Shown one piece after another: positions 11,692 through 60,870 of a stretch of 64,000 bases of DNA. Within the stretch, counting starts at the first letter, position 1. Every line of letters begins with the position of its first letter. The position numbers were made by a program, and so were the translations under genes. The stretch is from the NCBI GenBank assembly GCA_036925085.1, contig JAUPFP010000039.1, positions 683,501-747,500 of the forward strand, given 5' to 3'. The notes under the pieces were generated by a model, which had not been told where the DNA came from, searched no databases, and saw only the letters and a program-made list of their open reading frames with translations. The DNA comes from Brachycybe producta (lineage: Eukaryota > Arthropoda > Diplopoda > Playtdesmida > Andrognathidae).

Positions 11692-13788
11692 ATGAATTTG
11701 ATCGTCGATTTGGTGACCGTTTTGAATGAATTTCTTGCAAACCCCGGCCCGTATCGACCCGCCCTAGCTGTACTTAAGGGTTTAAGAAATGGAGCCGTGT
11801 AAGTATTCATTCTTTATCACCTCATCCCTATTTACTATGGCCCATTCAATTAACCTAATGACCGATGTGATTATGTTTAGTTATGGAGCGAAGATTAGAG
11901 CACCTCACGCTTTCGTCATGACGTTTCTATTCCGTGATGGATCGTAAGTTTCCGTCCGATTGCCCGCCTTTTTTTTGTTCAACCTTTGACCCCCATTAAA
12001 CTTATTCGTTTTCAAGGCTAACAGAGAAATTGAAGTTAATTCTTAGAGCGACGTTGACTCACTCTCGTAACTTAGCATTCTTCGTGTTTGTCTATAAAAG
12101 TTTAAAAGCAATTCTGTCACTTACGTCTTCTTCTTCTTCGACGAAGACGGCATCAAGTTTACGTCCATTGCACGTATTTCTTTCGGGATTTACTGCAGGT
12201 TACGTTGTTTTTCACAAGAAAAATCAAGTTTCCCATCAGGTATAAAATATGCAACAAAGTGGCGCGAATTCGAATGAAGAATGTGTGTTAATGGGCAGTT
12301 GGGCGCAGCCAGAAAAATTCTGTTAGCCCCGCCCTTTTATGAGCATCAGACCAACAAGAAACCCATAAAAACAGAATCATACGCGTAACGAACCTAAATT
12401 ACCAATCAGAACGAACTTTTCTGGTTGCGCCCAAATGCTTGTTATGTGTTATGGGCATATATAAGAACTGTGGTTATGGGTCAGGTGAATGTCGTTTTGA
12501 AATCAGAGCTGGATTCCTTTCACATCATTGGAATGAATAAGAAGGTTGTACGAAAATGGCGTTGTCATTTTATACGTTTTAATATGTGAATTACGCCATA
12601 TTCGTACACTTCTTTTATACCAATTCTGCTTCAGAAATAAATGACGTCGCCACAATGATAGTGGAGAGCAGTACAAATAGCGCTCTTATTTAAAGACGTT
12701 AATATCGTTCACAATTAAATTTTCCCTAAAAAGAGTCATAAATTTTTATAATCAATGTAAAAAAAAATTTAGAAACAACATAAAAATATTAAAATACAGT
12801 CTATTAAAAATATTTTTTTTATTTAAGATTTAAGAAACTAGAAGGGTAATTGTAACGGTATTTAATGTTGATATCTTTTAAAATAAACTTTATATAGACA
12901 ACAATTTTAAAAAAAATATCGTCTGCTAAAAGATGGGCCATTTTTAAATTCGTATAAAAAGCTTATTTTGAAAGATATCAACTTGAAAATACATTAATTG
13001 AGCTACCCTTCTAGTTTATTAAAGAAAATTTTATTTTATTTTCATTTTGCACCTGAAAATGTTGATTAAATCTATGGTTCTTCTTTATTTCTGAAACAAC
13101 AAGTTTCAAGGAAAAGTTTGAAGGTGTTTTAGAAACTAGAAGGGTTATTCAATCACTTCTGGGTATTTTAATGTTGATATCTTTTAAAATAAACATTTTA
13201 TGTCAAGTTTGAAAATGACCGAACTTTATGTAGAGATGGTATTTTTTTAAAAAAAATTTTCTATAAAAAGTTTATTTTGAAAGATATCAACATGCAAATA
13301 CAATTGAGTGATTTAGCTGCCGTTCTAGTTTCTAAAACACTTTCAATGTTTCTTTAGTGTTGCTCTTTTGAGTTTGAAATCAACTCTATTGATTCATTTA
13401 CTTTTCTAGTTTCTAAAACACACTTTCAAATATAGAATAACCAGAGTGTTCTTTTCCATTGTTGTTCATCATTTGCATATTTTATAAATGGCTGGAGGTT
13501 ATATGATTGACTTTATTATATATTTTTCAATTTCAGATAATTCTCTACTTGTTATCGCGTATAATAATGGGATTAGTGAATGTGGCCATCAAGAAGAAAC
13601 TATTAACGTTACCAAAGAACGTTGAATTCTTTCCCTGGGTTGCAGCTACAGTATGGGGAATAGTGATGGTCCTATTCGAATATGAAAGGACCTCACTTCA
13701 GGATTCTTTGGTCTCATCCATGACTTACCTGTACGATGACAGCGAATCTTGGACCAATCTCAAAGATTTCTTGTGGCATAACAAATGA
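11692..13788 (+). CDS. PXMP4: Peroxisomal membrane protein 4 (PMP24), complete, 4 exons
   Basis: Exons read as 11692-11798, 11881-11943, 12017-12239 and 13537-13788, all with GT-AG introns and consistent phases, giving 214 aa (human PXMP4 is about 212). The family is Tim17-like integral proteins of the peroxisomal membrane; the molecular role is not well defined. Family-diagnostic stretches are LAVLKGLRNGAVYGAKIRAP across the first junction, HAFVMTFLFRDGS, a mid-protein LTHSRNLAFFVFVYK block, and a C-terminal LFEYERTSLQ...SSMTYLYDDS block. The start is the first ATG in frame before the conserved block. Introns 1 and 2 are 82 and 73 nt; intron 3 (1297 nt) is swollen by a GGGCGG-box MITE and two foldback elements. 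AATAAA begins one base after the TGA (13789) and again at 13879. Identification is by recalled similarity; I am confident in it. Confidence 0.95.
12291..12441. mobile_element. GGGCGG-box MITE, copy 5, in PXMP4 intron 3
   Basis: Ends CAGTTGGGCGCAGCCAGAAA and TTTCTGGTTGCGCCCAAATG with a CCCCGCCC core. Diverged subfamily; flanks ATGTGTGTTA / ATGTGTTA are near duplicates. Confidence 0.7.
12832..13022. mobile_element. Foldback (CTTCTAGTTTCT) MITE in PXMP4 intron 3
   Basis: Left arm AGAAACTAGAAGGGTAATTG to AATAAACTTT is mirrored by AAGCTTATTTTGAAAGATAT to CTACCCTTCTAGTTT. Non-coding hairpin. Confidence 0.8.
13127..13345. mobile_element. Second foldback MITE in PXMP4 intron 3
   Basis: Same family: GTTTTAGAAACTAGAAGGGT at the left, CCGTTCTAGTTTCTAAAACA at the right, with the GATATCTTTTAAAATAAAC / GTTTATTTTGAAAGATATC arms between. 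Confidence 0.85.
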
Positions 13789-20176: not shown

Positions 20177-20471
20177 CAATTTCATCTTAATGTTGCTCCT
20201 GAAATAAACCACAGTTTGAAAATTGTATGTTCGTAAATCAGCTTAATTTAGTTACTCTTAGTTAAGCTCTTGATATAAAAATAACGATACAGTCTTGAAA
20301 CGTGGGGCAATAACAAAACATTCAATAGGTGTGTCCCACTTTTTGAAACTGGTTTATTCTTCTCAAGTTCAAGGGCTCAAGTAAGAGTAACCCACCTTTA
20401 TCAATACATTAATATTTTATTAATATTTTTTAATAAATAATAACATAAATTAATTTTTTGACGTTGCTCAG

Positions 20472-26057
<5,586 letters not shown>

Positions 26058-46701: not shown

Positions 46702-46944
46702 TACCTGCCTCGGTCTAAGAAGAAGCTTGTGACGTCACAGGAATTGACCAAAAATATAGGATTGTGTCATTTAGTCTGATAAAACCAAAAAGAGACGGTA
46801 TCAAACGTTTTCAACAGTTTGAACAAAAGGATTCTTGAATTCTTTTGTTATTACTCCATTTGTTATCAGACAAAATAATGGGAATCCTAATTTTGTAAGC
46901 AATCCCTATGACGTCACAAGCTTCTTCTTAGGATGAGCCAGGTA
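46702..46944. mobile_element. MITE with ~40-bp ends and TA flanks
   Basis: Left ACCTGCCTCGGTCTAAGAAG with AAGCTTGTGACGTCAC, right GTGACGTCA-type mirror ending TTCTTAGGATGAGCCAGGT. TA on both sides suggests a Tc1/mariner-like origin. Confidence 0.7.
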
Positions 46945-46981
46945 TAAACAGTATTGACGATATTTCTAAAACCGTACTTAC

Positions 46982-49900
46982 TCATTTCGTAACTTGCATC
47001 GTCTTCGTTCTCTCTGTTTTCCTGTGCTTTAAAATGAGCTAAAAAAAATAAAACAAAAAGCCAAGCCCGTTTTATGGTTCATAATTAGCAATAATTAAAA
47101 GTATAATTTACAGCTTTCGTCTTTTCCAACGTCGTATACTCGTAATCTGGTCTGAGATTCGTGACGGTAGCGACATAACTTCTACGCTGCGCCTCTACGA
47201 ATGCTCTCGTGCTTTTCACCTGATTTCGTAGAATCTCGTTGAGAGCCATCAGAGACGGATTGTACGAAGACAACACTATACAACAGAATTCAACAGCAAT
47301 TTTATGTCAAAAGGTCACTAAAACACTTCAAATATTCAGCGTTTTGGTTACAACTTTATACAAAAAACCTGAAAGTGTTTTTGAAACTAGAAGAATAAAT
47401 GAATCACTTAAGGTGACTGAATATTTATTTTGGTTTTGTCCCCATGTATGGAGCCACCGCAGTGGCTATATGTTTTGTAGGAGGCCTCTTCCCCCCAACT
47501 CACCCACTATTTTGAGAACATTTACTTTTTCAAGCGAATGTTTTACATTACGAAAAAACTGAAAGTGTTTTCGAAACTAGAACAGTTGGTGATAATGTTA
47601 AAAGTTTTTTCACGACGATATCTTTCAAAATAAACTTTTTAATGATATTTTGAAAAAAAAAAAAAGTAGTTTTTTTCATGAAATGTCAATAGAAAAACGA
47701 AAAATCGTGTCATTTTCAAACTGAACTATAAAATGCTTCTTATTTCAGATATTGGCATAAAGAACCTTTTAACATAATCTTCTGCCATTCTAGTTTTGAA
47801 TTTTTTTTTCCTAATATTGTTTCTAAAAAAAGTTCACTTGACGTTTTTTCATCCAAATTTTCCAAAAACCGCAGTGGGCCGTGGCGTCATCCGAGGAAAC
47901 GAAAACAAAAGAAATATCAATTGAGCCAACTTAAGGGTATTTTCATGTTTACATCTTTCAAAATAAGCTTTTTATGACAGTTTGAATACGTTTGTCTATA
48001 TAAAGTTTATTTTGAAAGATATTAACCTGAAAGACAGAAAGTAATATGAATACTTTCATTTAAATTTTAAATAAAAAAAACCTGATTTCAAAACTAGTGA
48101 ATTTACCCTGAAGGGTTTCTGATGATATGACAAAAGACGAAACTCTTTGTGGATCGACAAAAGACGAGATTGGAACCCTAGCGTCGTTCAACTGCGAGTG
48201 AAGCAAACGGTTCGGATCTGGTCCGAGTCCCACTTCCGATATCGACGTTTGAACGCCTCGTGACAACACAGACCTTTTCCGTTGTTGCTTCATTTCGAGT
48301 TTTATTTTGATCTGCGAAACTTCCGACTCTTCGATACATTGTTCACTTAATCTACGAACGGATTTGGTATTCGGTCGAACAGATTTGGAACTCGATTCCA
48401 CCGTCCGAGATCGATCTCCCTCCACTTCGAAATCATCCTCGTACGAATAGTCGTCCGATTCCAATTCTCCACCTGTTCTTCTAGAAGGAAAACTATCGAC
48501 AGAAGAAACAGAAACACCGTCTTTCACAATTACCGTTTTCTCTCGAACTTCGGTTGAATCGAGATCACCGAAACTTCGTAGTTCCAACTTAAAACTACTG
48601 TCCGTAAGTTGCCCGTTGCCGTTTTCGGACTTTTCTTCTTCGGCAACATCCGTAATACGACTCGCATCACGATGTTCACTAACCGAAACGATGTTTTCTA
48701 CAACGTCTTCGATCTCCGAAGCAAAATCTTCGAATGATTTCACATTGAATATACTGACAACGCTAGACTCTTCTTTATCGTCTTCTTCTTGCGTAGATGA
48801 AACTCGACGATCATCGACAGGTTTCGATGTCGGTTTTGTTGCAAGTGTTTCTAATTTTTCCCTGGAGGTATCGGAACTTAGTTCTTCTTCTTCCTTTACA
48901 GCCAAAGTAGAAGAAGAAACTTTTGCATATTTGTTAGTGAAAAACTGAGCTTTCTGAAGAGCTGCACTTAAAGTTCGGCCACCGGCACCGATAGAAGGTC
49001 TTAAATCAGTCTTACCGACGTTATCACTCTTACCGATAACATTTAATGATTCTTTTTTTAAAAATAGGTTCTTACGATTCGTCTGTAACACAGTATTTGT
49101 TAATCGAGCGTCTTCTTCGAGCGATATGTTGTGAGGATGTTCGGCGTTGTCGTTTTTCTCACTCGTTTTCTTCTTTAAAGCTTTCAAATACTCCTGAAAG
49201 AAAAATTATAATTTAACAAATTGAAAAGATTTCCCCAAAAATATGACAAAAACTGCTGTATTTTTGTTATGTTAAGCACACATTCCAGGCAGCACGGTTT
49301 TGGTGTGGGTGGGTTGTGTCATTGGTTGGGAGCGTCAGTGGGAATTTCTGGTGTGGACTTTTTTTTTTTCGTTTTTAAAATTGAAATTTTTATGTTTTTT
49401 TTTTTTAAACGCTAATATAAAATCAAAAATCAAATCCTAGTGTACGCTTGTAATATATATTAACATATATATTCTAACTCACAAATGTCAGGTAAATAGT
49501 TTATTTTGAAAGATATCAATTTGAAAATACTATTTCAACCATTCTAGTTTTTTCTTTCGAAAGTTCAAAATAACAAAAAGATAAAAACGCTTTTTTTAAG
49601 TATAATATTCAAGATTTTATAAGATTTTTCAAGATTTATTTCAAAATAAACTGTTTATGGCAGTTTTGAAATCTTTTAATTGAAAAATGTAAAATTTCAT
49701 CGGATTTTAAATTGCCTTCGAAGCATTATTTACTCTTCTAGTTTCAAACAAATCTCTGAATTTGTTGATAATTAGTTTCAATAAAGAGAATTCGTTATAT
49801 AAACCTAAACTACCTGAAGTTGATCATTTTCCGATGAATAACGTTTCGTTCTTTCTGGATCTAAAGGCGTTTCTCGTCCAACAACCGGTGGTCTCGTCGC

Positions 49901-50016
49901 TTTGCCTGATATACCGACAGAAATTTCATCGCTCGATACGAGATGAAGAGACGGTTGAATGAAGTTACTTTTTCCGTCGCCAAATCTTCTCTTGTTCATC
50001 ATCTTATCATACAACA
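46982..50016 (-). CDS. C19orf44 homologue (DUF4614 family), 3' four exons
   Basis: Exons in transcript order: 50016-49814, 49193-48107, 47275-47112 and 47038-46982 (stop TGA), with matching phases and about 502 aa visible. The C-terminal region aligns by eye with human C19orf44: GVQTSISEVGLGPDP, SSFVDPQRVSSFVISSETLQ, VLSSYNPSLMALNEIL, STRAFVEAQRRS and the end YEYTTLEKTKALILKHRK. A YSYEDDFE motif matches YSEDFE in the human protein. The middle is acidic and Ser-rich, likely disordered. Function is unknown. The first exon listed starts with two bases of a split codon and its KMMNKRR resembles an internal human stretch, so an upstream coding exon probably exists between 50040 and 52400; I could not find it. 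The ATG at 50002 is the alternative start. The gene is divergent from calreticulin. Confidence 0.85.
47412..47930. mobile_element. TTAA-flanked MITE in a C19orf44-homologue intron
   Basis: TTAA at 47408-47411 and 47931-47934; ends GGTGACTGAATATTTATTTT and AGAAATATCAATTGAGCCAAC. It sits in the 831-base intron 47276-48106. Confidence 0.85.
49490..49750. mobile_element. Foldback MITE remnants in a C19orf44-homologue intron
   Basis: Two decayed pieces with GTTTATTTTGAAAGATATCA and CTCTTCTAGTTTCAAAC words. Confidence 0.55.
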
Positions 50017-50039
50017 CTAAAACTAAAGGAGGGAGGAAA

Positions 50040-52317
50040 AAAAACATACGATTTAAATGGTTCCATACTTGTTATTGGACACAAAAACGTCAAACGAACG
50101 TGTTTTTTTTAGAAACATTACGAAAAAAAAGTTAAAATTGTTTTCAATGGTAGCAGATTTATGTTGAAATATTTTTCATCGCAATACCTTAAAAAAATAA
50201 ACATTTTATAAGTTCAGCTTGAAAATGACCCAAAAAATGATCCGAAAACAAAACTAGTTTCGCCTTTTTCAAACAGTAATAAAAAGTGTAATTTGAAAGA
50301 TATCATTATGAAAAAAACTTTTAACATTATCATCCAATTATTCTAGTTGTTAAAACACTTCGATTTTCCCTTTTTGTAATGTTTCTCCTGAAAAAAGTTT
50401 GCGTGAAAAACTTAAAATTTTCTGAAAACCGCGGGGAAATTCAAGTATGGAAACCACATTCAGCAATCAAGTTAGTTATACTTTCTGACGTTCAGGTGGC
50501 GCAACATTCGTTTCACATGTTGCAGAATTTCAGAAACAGCAAACTACAGCAGCGCCACCTAAACGTCCAAACATAAATATAAATCAAGTGTCCATTCTTT
50601 TTGCAACGAAAATACGATATAATTCAACTTTCCCGCTAAATGTTCATTTCTTTATATTAAAAAAAAAACGAAATTACTCAGAAATGACGAAACTCACATT
50701 AATATGGTATTTCAAAAACGCTTGCAATACGTTTAGTGTCCATAAAATAAGTAAATACGCATGAAATTCTGATTCATTTCACCAAATTGTCAATAAAAAA
50801 TTACACAAATTGCCGTAAATAGTGAGAATTCTTTCGATTAAGACTTTTTGATGCGGTTAGCCTCCAAGACAAGGCTCTGTAATTGTTTTATAGGCATGGT
50901 TAGAGCCATATCGGGCGAAAGCCGTAAAGTGAATGAGCTGTATATAGAGGCTACATAACAATTTGCAGCAGTTTCCTGTCAAAATAAATTCGTATACAAC
51001 TATTTTTACGGAAGCCCGGTTGGCTCCTTAACACTTCATACTTAATAAAAAAAATCTTCCGTTACCTTCATACTTCACAGTTACCTTCACACTTCATCTA
51101 TAACTTCACACTTTATACATACCTTCTCAATATGTGTGAAGCTAAATGTGAAAGCAACTATGAAGATTTTTATTAACTTTTAAAAAACCGACCAGGCCTC
51201 CGTAGGGCTTTCATATTATTTGTTTATAAATGAACGTGACGACCTTGGTGAGAGGTGGAGGTCATAGCCTCAGTAAAGGTTCTCTTTATAGAGAGAACCT
51301 TGGCCTCAATTGGAATAGACCATAGAGGCAATGTTAAAGAGAAACGTACTCTTAGCCTCTACATGAAATGTGCTTTTTGTTTTTCAAAATTGTTATCGTA
51401 TTTTTTCTGTTTACATTGGATATCATTCAAGATAAATATATAGAGGTAGCAAATATTCATGTTAGAAAAAACATCGAGTGAGTGAGCATTAATTGTATAT
51501 CCTCTCTTCAAGGTTCTTTTTATTCCTCTTATCATTCCTTATATTTATTTTTTATAAAGATAACATTAAATCTCTTTTAAAAATTCCATACACTATTTTT
51601 ATATGTTCATAACATTTTCCTAGAAAAACAATTTGCTTTAAATAAAGGTGGCGCCATCTATTGGATACATTCAGCTACGGTTCGAAAATGCTCTATAGAC
51701 TATAGCCGAGCTTATAGTTTAGTTGAGCTACCTCTATTCATACTGTTATCTTTCTATAATATTTAGGATGTAAGTTAGAGGCTAGAATTTGGAGTTCAGT
51801 CATTACGATTCACGACTAGAGATCATCATCTTATAGCAAGACAAGCTGGCGCACCTATGTTGTCTATAAAGCCGCCATGTTCGGACCGCTGCGAAGCGGC
51901 TGGGCTAATAAATTTCCATTGCATTTTTTGCGCTAACTTTTTTCAGGGGCGACATAAAAAAAACTTAAAAGTGTTTTATAAAATAGAATAGTAGGTCCTA
52001 GTTTTTACGTCATCGCTGTCAAACTGGCAAATGTGTAATCGCAAATAGAACGAGGATAATGACAGCAAAATATTGGAAGTTTTGCGAAACTAAAAAATAT
52101 ATAACTAACACATACTTTGACTCGAAAACATAAAAACTACATCACGTTCATTAATAGACAGTGTAGATTATTTTCAGTCTGATGACATTTTCTTGTATTT
52201 TAACTAAATTTTAAGTTATTTCAATTTTTTGCGAAATCTAAAAATAAAGAGCTCCAAAGATGAAACTGGACAGAAAATGCCTACGTAGCCAACTCGTATA
52301 GATTAAGGCGCCTTTAT
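50040..52317. other. Divergent intergenic space or unseen C19orf44 5' exons
   Basis: It contains a diverged TTAA-type MITE at about 50075-50590 (ACGTCAAACGAACG, ACAGCAGCGCCACCTAAACG) and imperfect palindromes of AGCCTCTA words at 50870-51360. An upstream coding exon of the DUF4614 gene is expected here on the minus strand but none could be assigned. Confidence 0.4.
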
Positions 52318-52325
52318 TGACGTCA
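52318..52325. promoter_or_regulatory. Full CRE/ATF palindrome TGACGTCA
   Basis: A perfect TGACGTCA lies 280 bases before the calreticulin ATG. It is the classical CREB/ATF site. It lies in the same upstream block as the ERSE, which supports a regulatory role, but a chance 8-mer cannot be excluded. Confidence 0.45.
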
Positions 52326-52360
52326 TTGTAATGAAACGTTTAAAAATATTGAGACAGTGG

Positions 52361-52379
52361 CGTGGGTGCCTCCGATTGG
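52361..52379 (-). promoter_or_regulatory. ER-stress response element (ERSE), reverse orientation
   Basis: The plus strand reads CGTGG, then nine bases, then ATTGG; its complement is CCAAT-N9-CCACG, the exact mammalian ERSE consensus bound by NF-Y plus ATF6/XBP1. It is about 225 bases upstream of the calreticulin start codon, a usual distance for ER chaperone genes. ERSE function in either orientation is established for mammals; use in this animal is inference. Confidence 0.75.
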
Positions 52380-52394
52380 TTGTCAGTTGTTCAA

Positions 52395-52430
52395 CCAATC
52401 AGAACTTTCCATCTGGAAGGTGGTCACGTG
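52395..52430. promoter_or_regulatory. Second CCAAT box and CACGTG box upstream of calreticulin
   Basis: CCAAT is at 52395-52399 and CACGTG at 52425-52430, the latter extended to TCACGTGGG, which contains the ACGTG core used by XBP1-type bZIP factors. The spacing is not a canonical ERSE. Together with the ERSE this makes a compact chaperone-type promoter. Confidence 0.5.
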
Positions 52431-52604
52431 GGTCGTTTGCCTTTTCCTTATATTTTGCTCGTCGCCGGTGATTAATTTTTCTCGTTTTGTCCGTCGTCTT
52501 CGGTTAGCGTTTGACGTTTTCTTCGGTCTCTTTTTACATCTTATTTCAGCCACATTTTTTTTACACGTAGCTCAATATATAGTTTATAATTTCAATATAA
52601 GAAG

Positions 52605-55600
52605 ATGAAGATACTTTTAACGTTTTGTGCCTCGATTCTTCTATTCTTTTGTTCGGTCAACGCTAAAGTTTTCTTCTTGGAAACTTTTGACGGTTTGTAT
52701 AAACGAAAACATTCTCGGAAAAAAATAATCCGCAGTTTTTTTTGGTTCATTTTTAAACGAAAAACCGATTAAATCTATTCATAAGATGAATTATTTATCT
52801 AAAATAGTCAATTTTGATAACGTGGCTGTTTTTAAATGTTGAATTTCGTTTGAATTTTGATGAAAATTGCGATTTTTCGTTGAATTTGTTCGTCTCTGAC
52901 GTGTCACTTTTTAACCCTTTCATTATCCCTGTATTTTTTTCTAATCTTTAAAATGTTTCATTTTAAACTTTTTAATAAACAGACAATTCGTGGGAATCGA
53001 CGTGGGTCCAATCGACTCATAAAGGAAGTGAAGTTGGTGCTTTTGTTGCATCAGCTGGAAAATTCTACAATGATCCTGTTAAAGACAAAGGCATTTTTAA
53101 TTCTTAAATAAATTGAAAATTGTGTCGATTTCAGTTAATTTTTATGTTTTGTGTGTTTTTTTTTATATAGGAATTCAGACTAGTCAAGATGCTCGATTTT
53201 ACGCGCTTTCTTCCAAGTTTGAACCGTTCAGTAATGAAGGAAAGGATTTGGTCGTTCAGTTTTCTGTAAAACATGAACAGAACATCGATTGTGGTGGTGG
53301 TTACATTAAGTTATTCGATTGTAGTCTTGATCAGAACGATATGCACGGAGATTCACCTTACGTCATCATGTTTGGTTTGTTTTAATGACATTTTTTTGGT
53401 TCTTTTCTGAATGTGGATAATAAGATCGGTTCATTTTTAATAATCCATTTGGTGAAAATATGAGAAACGATTTGTTTAGAAAACTACTTCTGAAACAAAT
53501 TTCATGGTTTTGGATTTGAAATTTAAAACCGTTTTGATAAAATGGAAAATAATGGTTTTTTTTTTTTTAAGTAAAGATGACATTTTTTAGGTTTTGATTT
53601 GAAAAAAATGGTTGGAGAGACTTCCAAGAAATGCAGTATTTTTAAGATTTAACTTGAAGTAGTTGACATTTTCAGGTATCGAGTTTAAAGTGTTTGGGGA
53701 AAAAAACAGTGCTAAGGAATTATTTTTACGTTTTGACAGCCGAAAACATTGAAAAACAGTTTAAAATTGCCATAGAAGTTCATTTTTTTCCAGATATGAT
53801 CATAAAAATAATCAAAATTACCTTTCTTTCATCTTCAATTTACTAAATAAACTTAAAATTAAGCCGTTCTCGTCGTTTTTTCTGCACCGATGATCAGAAA
53901 AATGGACCGATTTTGTTATTAAATGAAAAAAAAATAACTGAATGTGATCCTTTTTGTTTAGGACCCGACATATGTGGACCGGGAACGAAAAAAGTTCACG
54001 CCATTTTTAACTACAAGGGAAAGAACCTTTTGATCAATAAAGATATTCGTTGCAAGGTTTTTTTTTTATATTTATGAAACACAACTTTATAAATCGAACT
54101 TTTTGATTTGAATTACAAACTTTCTCGATTTTATGTTTCAGGACGACGTTTTTACTCACGTTTACACTTTGATCATTCATCCCGACAACACATATGAGGT
54201 CAAGATCGACAATGAAAAGGTTGAAAGCGGTGATTTGGAATCCGATTGGAGTTTCTTGCCACCGAAGACGATCAAGGATCCCGAAGCGAAGAAACCTGAC
54301 GATTGGGACGATAGGCCAAAGATCGACGATCCGACCGACACGAAACCAGAAGACTGGGAGAAACCCGAACACATTCCGGATCCCGATGCCGTGAAACCCG
54401 AAGATTGGGACGACGAAATGGACGGAGATTGGGAACCACCTCAAATTGATAATCCCGAATACAAAGGAGAATGGAAACCGAAACAGATTGATAATCCGGA
54501 TTACAAGGGACCTTGGGTTCATCCCGAGATCGATAATCCAGAATACGTCGTCGATACGACTCTTTATAAGTATCCGGAAATCTGTATCGCTGGTTTCGAT
54601 CTTTGGCAAGTGAAATCCGGAACGATCTTTGATAACGTTCTCATCACCGACGACGTCGAACATGCCAGGCAGTACGCCGAAGAGACGTGGGGAGCTACTA
54701 AGGTAAAAACTAAAGATCAAGAGACGTTTATTTGTCGGAATAACGACTTGTGGCAGGCTTAAGATTCTTTTTACGTACAGGTCTCGACATAATTCTTCGA
54801 AATTAAATTTTAAATTATTAAAAAGCCGTTGAAAAACGATAATTTCATTCTTGGAATGATAATAAACAAAAATGTTTATTAAAATTATCCATTTTAATGG
54901 CTTTTTTTAATTCTTTCAAATTTATTTTTGGAGAATTTTCAAGACTTACGTTAAAGTGAATTGCAATGAAAAATAGTTTAAACGCGAATCGGATGAGAAA
55001 AACACCATAAAAATTCTTATAACAAACAACTTGTTTAAAGAGGTTTTTGATTATTCTGTCTTTCAGGTGCAATATTTAGAGAAACTTGTGTTCTAAAAAC
55101 TAGAAGAGCTAGCTGAACCACTTAAAAGATTATTTTCACGTTGATATCTATCAAAAGCAGTCAATATTTTTTTAATTTTTTTTTTATATATAAAGTTTAT
55201 TTTGAAAGATATTAACATGAAAATACCCTTAAATGATTAAGCTACCTGCTCTAGTTTCTAAAACACTTTCCTAGTTTCTCTTAATTTTGCTCTTCTGAAA
55301 GACAGATAAATCAAGAATTCGAAAATCAGCTGTTCATGAATGATAACGGTCGCGAAAACATATTCGAAACCTGATGTTTCGTGTTAAACGACTTCTACCG
55401 TACTTATTATTTTACTAAATTATCGTTTGTGTTCGTTTTTTACAGGTAGGAGAAAAGAAGATGCACGACGAACAGGAAGAAGAAGAAAAGAAGAAACGAG
55501 AGGAGGAAGACAAAGCGAAGAAGGTTGAAGAAGACGAGGAGGAGGAAGACGAAGATGAAGAGGAAGAAAAAGAAGTAAGCACAAATCGTAATGACCGGCG

Positions 55601-55690
55601 TTTGATATATTTATTGATCTTTTCCTCTTATCTTAGGTTGAAAAGGAAGAAGAACACGACCACCACGATCATGAACACGAAGAACTATAA
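52605..55690 (+). CDS. CALR: Calreticulin, complete, 7 exons
   Basis: Exons: 52605-52692, 52983-53090, 53171-53374, 53962-54056, 54142-54702, 55446-55574, 55637-55690, summing to 412 aa (human about 417). This is the Ca2+-binding lectin chaperone of the ER lumen that folds monoglucosylated glycoproteins. An N-terminal signal peptide (MKILLTFCASILLFFCSVNA) is followed by the globular lectin domain with KHEQNIDCGGGY and PDICGPGTKK carrying the conserved disulfide cysteines. The P-domain has three repeats of the DDPTDTKPEDWEKPEHIPDP type and three of the WKPKQIDNPDYKG type. FDLWQVKSGTIFDN closes the lectin fold. The C-tail is acidic (EEEEDEDEEEE), with a His-rich stretch just before the end. It ends HEEL instead of KDEL/HDEL. 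Intron 2 (53091-53170) begins with GC rather than GT. Intron 5 holds a foldback MITE. Confidence 0.98.
53091..53170 (+). other. GC-AG intron of calreticulin
   Basis: The 80-nt intron runs from GCATTT to TATAG. The flanking residues KDK|GIQTSQDARF are invariant in calreticulins, and no GT placement keeps the frame, so the donor is GC. The rest of the donor is also weak (GCATTT, not GCAAGT). Confidence 0.8.
55038..55335. mobile_element. Foldback MITE in calreticulin intron 5
   Basis: Left TTATTCTGTCTTTCAGGTGC and AAACTAGAAGAGCTAGC, right CTACCTGCTCTAGTTTCTAA and CTGAAAGACAGATAA. Intron 5 is 743 bases mostly because of it. Confidence 0.8.

Positions 55691-56913: not shown

Positions 56914-60870
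<3,957 letters not shown>

Follow-up and report, generated by a model that had tools for sequence, protein, structure and literature searches.

Divergent calreticulin and C19orf44-type genes in Brachycybe producta, a possible ancient linkage

Introduction

Has a calreticulin gene kept the same uncharacterised neighbour since the early bilaterians? The question is raised by a 64-kb stretch of the Brachycybe producta genome (the whole of the DNA analysed here, hereafter the window), in which a calreticulin gene and a DUF4614 gene face away from each other. The original prediction for this DNA proposed that the pair resembles human CALR3 and C19orf44 and, if so, that the linkage has been conserved, suggesting a shared promoter or a role tied to ER folding. 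Here we examine the two genes, the gap between them and the vertebrate counterpart, and we weigh the explanations for their proximity.

Results

Identity and copy number of the calreticulin gene

The calreticulin gene lies on the plus strand (52605..55690), where seven coding exons (52605-52692, 52983-53090, 53171-53374, 53962-54056, 54142-54702, 55446-55574 and 55637-55690) join into one open frame of 412 amino acids and make a complete gene. The splice sites of its six introns are consistent, with five GT-AG and one GC-AG. By hydropathy the protein has a hydrophobic, signal-peptide-like start, and it closes with an acidic tail and a C-terminal HEEL instead of KDEL. HEEL is likewise the end of Limulus P0007. 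Pfam family PF00262 matches it in two stretches (E 1.6e-78, 264.7 bits vs a cut-off of 25), and the solved structures closest to it are calreticulins (E 4e-190). The best organism-named whole-protein match is calreticulin of the centipede Strigamia maritima, at 79% over 89% of the query; by E-value the top row is a longer moth protein covering 57%, with three further proteins ranking between it and S. maritima. Arthropod calreticulins lead the named matches, which marks the protein as calreticulin and not calnexin. Scanning the bacterial and viral collections for animal calreticulin loci brought up a single locus, in a bacterial MAG, whose match is short (39% across 38 aa, E 0.002) and which was set aside.

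Across the 295.3-Mb assembly (442 contigs), PF00262 is found at two loci, the window calreticulin and a calnexin-like locus on C15. The C15 locus shares 32-48% identity with the window gene over the pieces that align and, like calnexin, codes for a membrane segment. Within reach of profile searches, calreticulin proper is single copy in the assembly.

A tree was built from 42 sequences, namely the window protein, 34 organism-named proteins and 7 others of the 120 listed. The window calreticulin groups with proteins P0002 and P0003 (support 100/98). This trio stands outside a cluster of molluscs, an annelid, a brachiopod and vertebrates (100/99), and also outside the crustacean (100/99), insect (100/99) and chelicerate (80/94) groups, near a weak trio that contains Strigamia (Myriapoda; 86/72). 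A constraint that joins the window trio to the Strigamia trio was not rejected (p-AU 0.483), nor was one that joins it to the non-arthropods (p-AU 0.484). The protein is probably of arthropod and perhaps of myriapod placement, a reading from the aligned sequences that is weakened by the near-equal p-AU values.

The neighbour is a putative C19orf44-type gene with a partial model

The known part of the DUF4614 gene comprises four minus-strand exons (50002-49814, 49193-48107, 47275-47112 and 47021-46983) encoding 493 amino acids, and it is partial at both ends. The junction from 47112 to 47021 was picked for frame-keeping and is the least certain one. PF15391 (DUF4614) is already recognised when only the ORF at the third exon is used (E 6.7e-16, 59.3 bits vs a gathering score of 25), and joining the four exons raises the match to E 1.6e-23 and 84.1 bits over profile positions 3-172 of 180, in a single stretch (residues 314-479) that spans the boundary between exons 2 and 3. 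A profile search of the 295-Mb assembly placed PF15391 at the window gene and nowhere else. We take PF15391/DUF4614 to be the domain of C19orf44, and the window gene is thus a putative ortholog of C19orf44/FCAP71 on the strength of the Pfam profile and this domain identity.

No relatives were found by a whole-protein search of a database that includes animal proteins (7991 candidates scored), nor with residues 385-480 as the query (354 candidates), an outcome that reflects divergence and the reach of word matching rather than a lack of relatives. The term DUF4614 is absent from the literature searched. A C19orf44-like gene is listed on chromosome 1 of Mytilus chilensis, without neighbours, in the accessible part of PMC11817969.

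Position 46982 had been taken for the limit of the DUF4614 gene. The boundary 46982/46983 is instead a probable splice donor (ATG/A gtaagt) and, the donor of the last exon being good, the model lacks one 3' exon or more. At the other end, an acceptor-like AG at about 50024-50023 follows a pyrimidine tract roughly 20 bases before the start codon at 50002 (50003..50024, minus strand), and this acceptor-like tract suggests an earlier 5' exon upstream of the ATG.

The proximity of the two genes could be taken to mean that the DUF4614 protein works with calreticulin in ER folding, as the original prediction had proposed, and an alternative start at 50047 would even give the protein a hydrophobic N-terminus (MFFFLPPLVLVLYDK). 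That start, however, sits in a pyrimidine tract of intronic appearance. In the spliced model, which has one cysteine, the peak 19-residue hydropathy is only 0.66, so that neither a signal nor a membrane segment is evident. The mouse homologue of C19orf44, FCAP71, is moreover reported at the base of the cilium in the available text of a paper that calls its function uncharacterised. We therefore consider the ER-folding role very improbable. The same text cites biallelic null variants of C19orf44 in retinal degeneration (2025).

The gap between the two genes

Calreticulin (plus strand) and the DUF4614 gene (minus strand) have their 5' ends facing, with start codons 2603 bp apart. Gene models, the PF15391 and PF00262 matches and the opposite strands all bear out that the two are neighbours transcribed apart. 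The interval from 50.0 to 52.6 kb, predicted to hold no other gene, yielded none: neither tRNA genes nor Rfam families at gathering score turned up in the 64-kb window, and none of 10 ORFs picked from the gap has a Pfam match above the cut-off. Two sub-threshold Pfam matches in the gap ORFs (E 0.046 and 0.1) seem to be chance hits. Beyond calreticulin, and convergent with it, lies a minus-strand gene (56917..60709) whose RING, B-box and ARF exons were recognised by Pfam and which we presume to be TRIM23-like.

Repeat matches within the window and the genome identify 50075..50428 as one copy of a dispersed repeat that is partly palindromic and present in high copy number, an insertion that widened the gap by 354 bp (~350 bp). 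It has six matches, each 100 bases or longer, at five other places in the window, and a related copy lies inside a DUF4614 intron (47510-47856). Genome-wide, a first look gave 3274 candidates; 40 of them were scored, and the top non-self match among these is 78%. Many of the scored places match on both strands, so the repeat looks palindromic and MITE-like, the latter being our own label. Roughly 21% of the gap is matched elsewhere in the window. The remaining interval (50429..52360) is without a tRNA, Rfam or above-cut-off Pfam feature in the searches made.

Could the two genes have come together by chance, independently in the Brachycybe producta lineage and in vertebrates? One invertebrate locus is known, as such a coincidence would allow. 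For two single-copy genes placed at random in the 295-Mb assembly, starts within 2.6 kb have a probability of ~2e-5 (2 x 2603 / 295,300,729), a figure that assumes random placement for a pair chosen after the fact and that a common ancient linkage group would raise. Independent origin by chance appears improbable to us.

Promoter signals upstream of calreticulin

A pattern scan revealed one exact CCAAT-N9-CCACG element on the minus strand (52361..52379), 226 bp ahead of the calreticulin start codon. We take this pattern to be the ER stress response element (ERSE) of mammalian calreticulin promoters. It occurs once in the 64-kb window vs an expectation of 0.00 (100 shuffles) or 0.05 (Markov simulation). 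With one mismatch there are 5 matches vs 1.45 expected; this excess was reached in 3 of 100 shuffles, so it is mainly the exact match that is telling. The element overlaps a perfect 9-bp inverted repeat, GATTGGTTG/CAACCAATC (52374..52400), which contains two opposed CCAAT boxes and was observed once vs 0.017 expected per 64 kb. The simplest reading of the ERSE and the CCAAT dyad is that they form a putative, ordinary UPR-controlled calreticulin promoter.

A two-way promoter for calreticulin and the DUF4614 gene is possible. It would be a more specific form of the explanation that we favour below, and not exclusive of it. The CCAAT dyad and ERSE (52361-52400) would start both genes, and an untranslated first DUF4614 exon at ~52.1-52.3 kb would be spliced to the acceptor at ~50023. 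The paired opposed CCAAT boxes with the ERSE, the acceptor-like site ahead of the DUF4614 start codon and, at 52115 on the minus strand, a donor-like AAAgtatgt would all fit. The ERSE lies 2.36 kb from the DUF4614 ATG, so promoter sharing would require such a further upstream exon, and its candidate donor at 52115 ranks only fifth of the 15 minus-strand sites listed in the gap, of which 51122 scores best. Opposed CCAAT boxes within 25 bp are, under this looser pattern, not rare (1 observed, 2.1 expected), and ERSEs ordinarily serve the chaperone gene alone. We regard promoter sharing as doubtful. Two loose patterns for the cilium-type RFX X-box, taken from its consensus, gave no match in the gap.

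Linkage of CALR3 and C19orf44 in vertebrates

In the accessible parts of the papers concerned, EPS15L1, CALR3, C19orf44 and CHERP are printed at one locus at human 19p13.11 (PMC3128114), and a human interval of ~232 kb is given as EPS15L1, CALR3, CHERP, C19orf44, SLC35E1 and MED26, with CHERP between (PMC11061283). A 50-kb chicken window holds CHERP, C19orf44 and CALR3 (PMC11050503). As printed, the gene order differs between the two human lists, and direct adjacency of CALR3 and C19orf44 fits two of the three lists. In their accessible text, these papers bring up the two genes as members of a single interval in scans for association or selection (PMC3128114, PMC11061283, PMC11050503).

The strand of human C19orf44 can be derived from a variant table, as far as it is available, in which C to T gives Arg293Cys (PMC3665763). 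In the same table C to T in ICAM3 gives Ser376Asn and G to C in MUC16 gives Ala6390Gly, rows that make sense only if both genes are on the minus strand, which shows that the table is written in genomic letters. Since Arg to Cys needs C to T on the coding strand, C19orf44 lies on the plus strand. The strand of CALR3 was not found in the literature searched. The head-to-head arrangement that the original prediction gave for human chromosome 19 is thus printed as far as linkage goes and derived for the C19orf44 strand; CALR3 would directly adjoin C19orf44 and lie on the minus strand, with an intergenic gap of ~0.1 kb. GADD45GIP1 (PF10147) and RAD23 (PF09280) presumably lie near human CALR. MED26 (PF15694) lies near human C19orf44.

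Records from other vertebrates are scattered. In zebrafish, according to the text available from PMC5098260, calr maps to chromosome 8, calr3a to 22 and calr3b to 2, and the position of zebrafish C19orf44 was not found in the literature searched. Cattle C7H19orf44, the one of six C19orf44 symbols of other vertebrates that was found, is on chromosome 7 according to a paper whose accessible part is without CALR3. In the excerpted analysis of PMC5824609, CALR3 of human and chicken falls as an outgroup to the other vertebrate calreticulins and has no salmon orthologues, which leaves the history of the vertebrate calreticulin paralogues unsettled. In the literature searched, mostly without subscription papers, we found no description of the calreticulin/DUF4614 pair as conserved.

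Expression of the vertebrate genes

CALR3 expression appears to be testis-restricted, and knockout male mice are infertile, according to the available text of PMC6189092. C19orf44 is described as ubiquitous, especially in testis and ovary, in the part seen of PMC11050503, and it is linked with GAPDHS in testis in an excerpt of PMC10298883. With CALR3 testis-restricted and C19orf44 ubiquitous, strict co-regulation is not evident in human.

This reported difference would suit an adjacency that is ancestral yet neutral, where rearrangement was slow and nothing in regulation or function holds the genes together. The gap has tolerated the insertion of a high-copy repeat, which points the same way, and the accessible part of PMC5722932 warns that microsynteny can be neutral. 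A pair kept in an arthropod and in vertebrates has nevertheless survived long for neutral neighbours, and we hold neutrality to be rather unlikely. Most gene neighbours are lost over the time span that separates arthropods from vertebrates.

We also offer a bolder and highly speculative proposal. A bidirectional ERSE/NF-Y promoter as old as the bilaterians might couple the ciliary-base gene to calreticulin. Cells building a cilium or sperm flagellum would then step up ER chaperone capacity along with the cilium-base protein, and testis-specific CALR3 in vertebrates would be a relic of this coupling.

Discussion

We believe that the divergent pair goes back to a bilaterian ancestor and that cis-regulatory constraint has preserved it, each protein having a role of its own, and we put the probability of this explanation, for which one invertebrate locus has been seen, slightly above even (about 0.55). 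For bilaterian inheritance we count the single copy of each gene, the ~2e-5 chance figure and the linkage in human and chicken; the Strigamia match, the tree position, the ERSE/CCAAT dyad and the cilium-base homologue also count for the explanation as a whole. Common descent, cis-regulatory constraint and gene function in Brachycybe producta are what we infer from these observations. Provided that the source is an arthropod, it is a fair inference that the linkage is older than the split of arthropods and vertebrates, and its retention through cis-regulatory constraint or slow rearrangement is the best reading.

Under inheritance with constraint, the calreticulin-DUF4614 pair would already have been present in the bilaterian ancestor. 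In vertebrates calreticulin would have been duplicated, and CALR3 would have kept C19orf44 as its neighbour. What retained the pair may have been an originally compact promoter region between the head-to-head genes, where breaks would harm at least one of them. Calreticulin would serve as an ER chaperone under an ERSE/CCAAT promoter and the DUF4614 protein would act at the base of cilia, in separate roles. The present gap of 2.6 kb with its repeat insertion is not compact, and we count this against the compact-promoter reading.

Among known systems the closest is human CALR3-C19orf44 at 19p13.11, which in the printed excerpts likewise has a calreticulin-family gene at one locus with C19orf44. 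The likeness would extend to the head-to-head arrangement, given the derived plus strand of C19orf44 and the presumed minus strand and adjacency of CALR3. The two differ in that human CALR3 is a duplicated paralogue, reported as testis-restricted, across a gap of ~0.1 kb, whereas Brachycybe producta has its sole calreticulin across 2.6 kb.

Two further systems are comparable as far as the available text describes them. In the PDIA1/RhoGDI-alpha microsynteny an ER-folding gene is also linked to a non-ER gene, and the linkage, more than 800 million years old, is explained by cis-regulation and/or functional cooperation (PMC5722932). That pair was followed through many species, with co-induction and binding tested, whereas for the calreticulin/DUF4614 pair gene order was read in one invertebrate. 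The ancestral bidirectional promoters of chordates, 372 putative cases of which most were lost in vertebrates, are similarly head-to-head neighbours retained from a deep ancestor (PMC6292497). Those cases were defined by CAGE or by 5'-5' neighbour orientation, and the text available names none of the pairs. If the calreticulin/DUF4614 pair is found in many phyla, it would offer an evolutionary approach to C19orf44, which has been tied to retinal degeneration, and would test whether deep microsynteny between an ER chaperone gene and a cilium gene reflects shared control. Ancient head-to-head gene pairs are an already known class, to which the calreticulin/DUF4614 pair adds a member.

Splicing of the calreticulin gene

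The calreticulin gene contains a GC-AG intron that begins at 53091 (AAAG/gcattt ... atatag) with GC in place of GT, and the conserved calreticulin protein stays in frame across this junction. At 54703-54762 the reading frame of the large calreticulin exon runs 19 residues into the following intron before it reaches a stop codon. Judged from the sequence, retention of the intron from 54703 would yield a calreticulin that lacks the acidic tail and the terminal HEEL.

Surroundings of the DUF4614 gene

An upstream ATG at 50047 is in frame with DUF4614, and its use would give the protein the hydrophobic N-terminus MFFFLPPLVLVLYDK. The pyrimidine tract around this ATG looks like intron sequence. The repeat at 50075-50428, which lies between the start codons of the two genes, is about 350 bp long, partly palindromic and very abundant (40 of the 3274 first-look candidates were scored in a search of 295 Mb). 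Another inverted-repeat element, read by eye, occupies 46717-46945, with arms around AAGAAGCTTGTGACGTCA, a short way downstream of the last DUF4614 exon found.

Other coding regions of the window

On the minus strand at 56917-60709, consecutive exons encode RING, B-box and ARF domains and make up a TRIM23-like gene that stands tail to tail with calreticulin. A minus-strand frame at 59882-60340 is built of tandem repeat units and appears to lie within an intron of this TRIM23-like gene.

Trypsin-type protease exons (PF00089) are found on the plus strand at 23600-25900, where the Pfam match at 24672-25115 is over the cut-off and that at 25605-25880 is under it. Ahead of them is a cysteine- and proline-rich exon (20462-21142), for which Pfam returned no match. 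The plus-strand ORF at 13507-13785, also without a match in Pfam, resembles peroxisomal membrane proteins of the PXMP4/TMEM135 kind.
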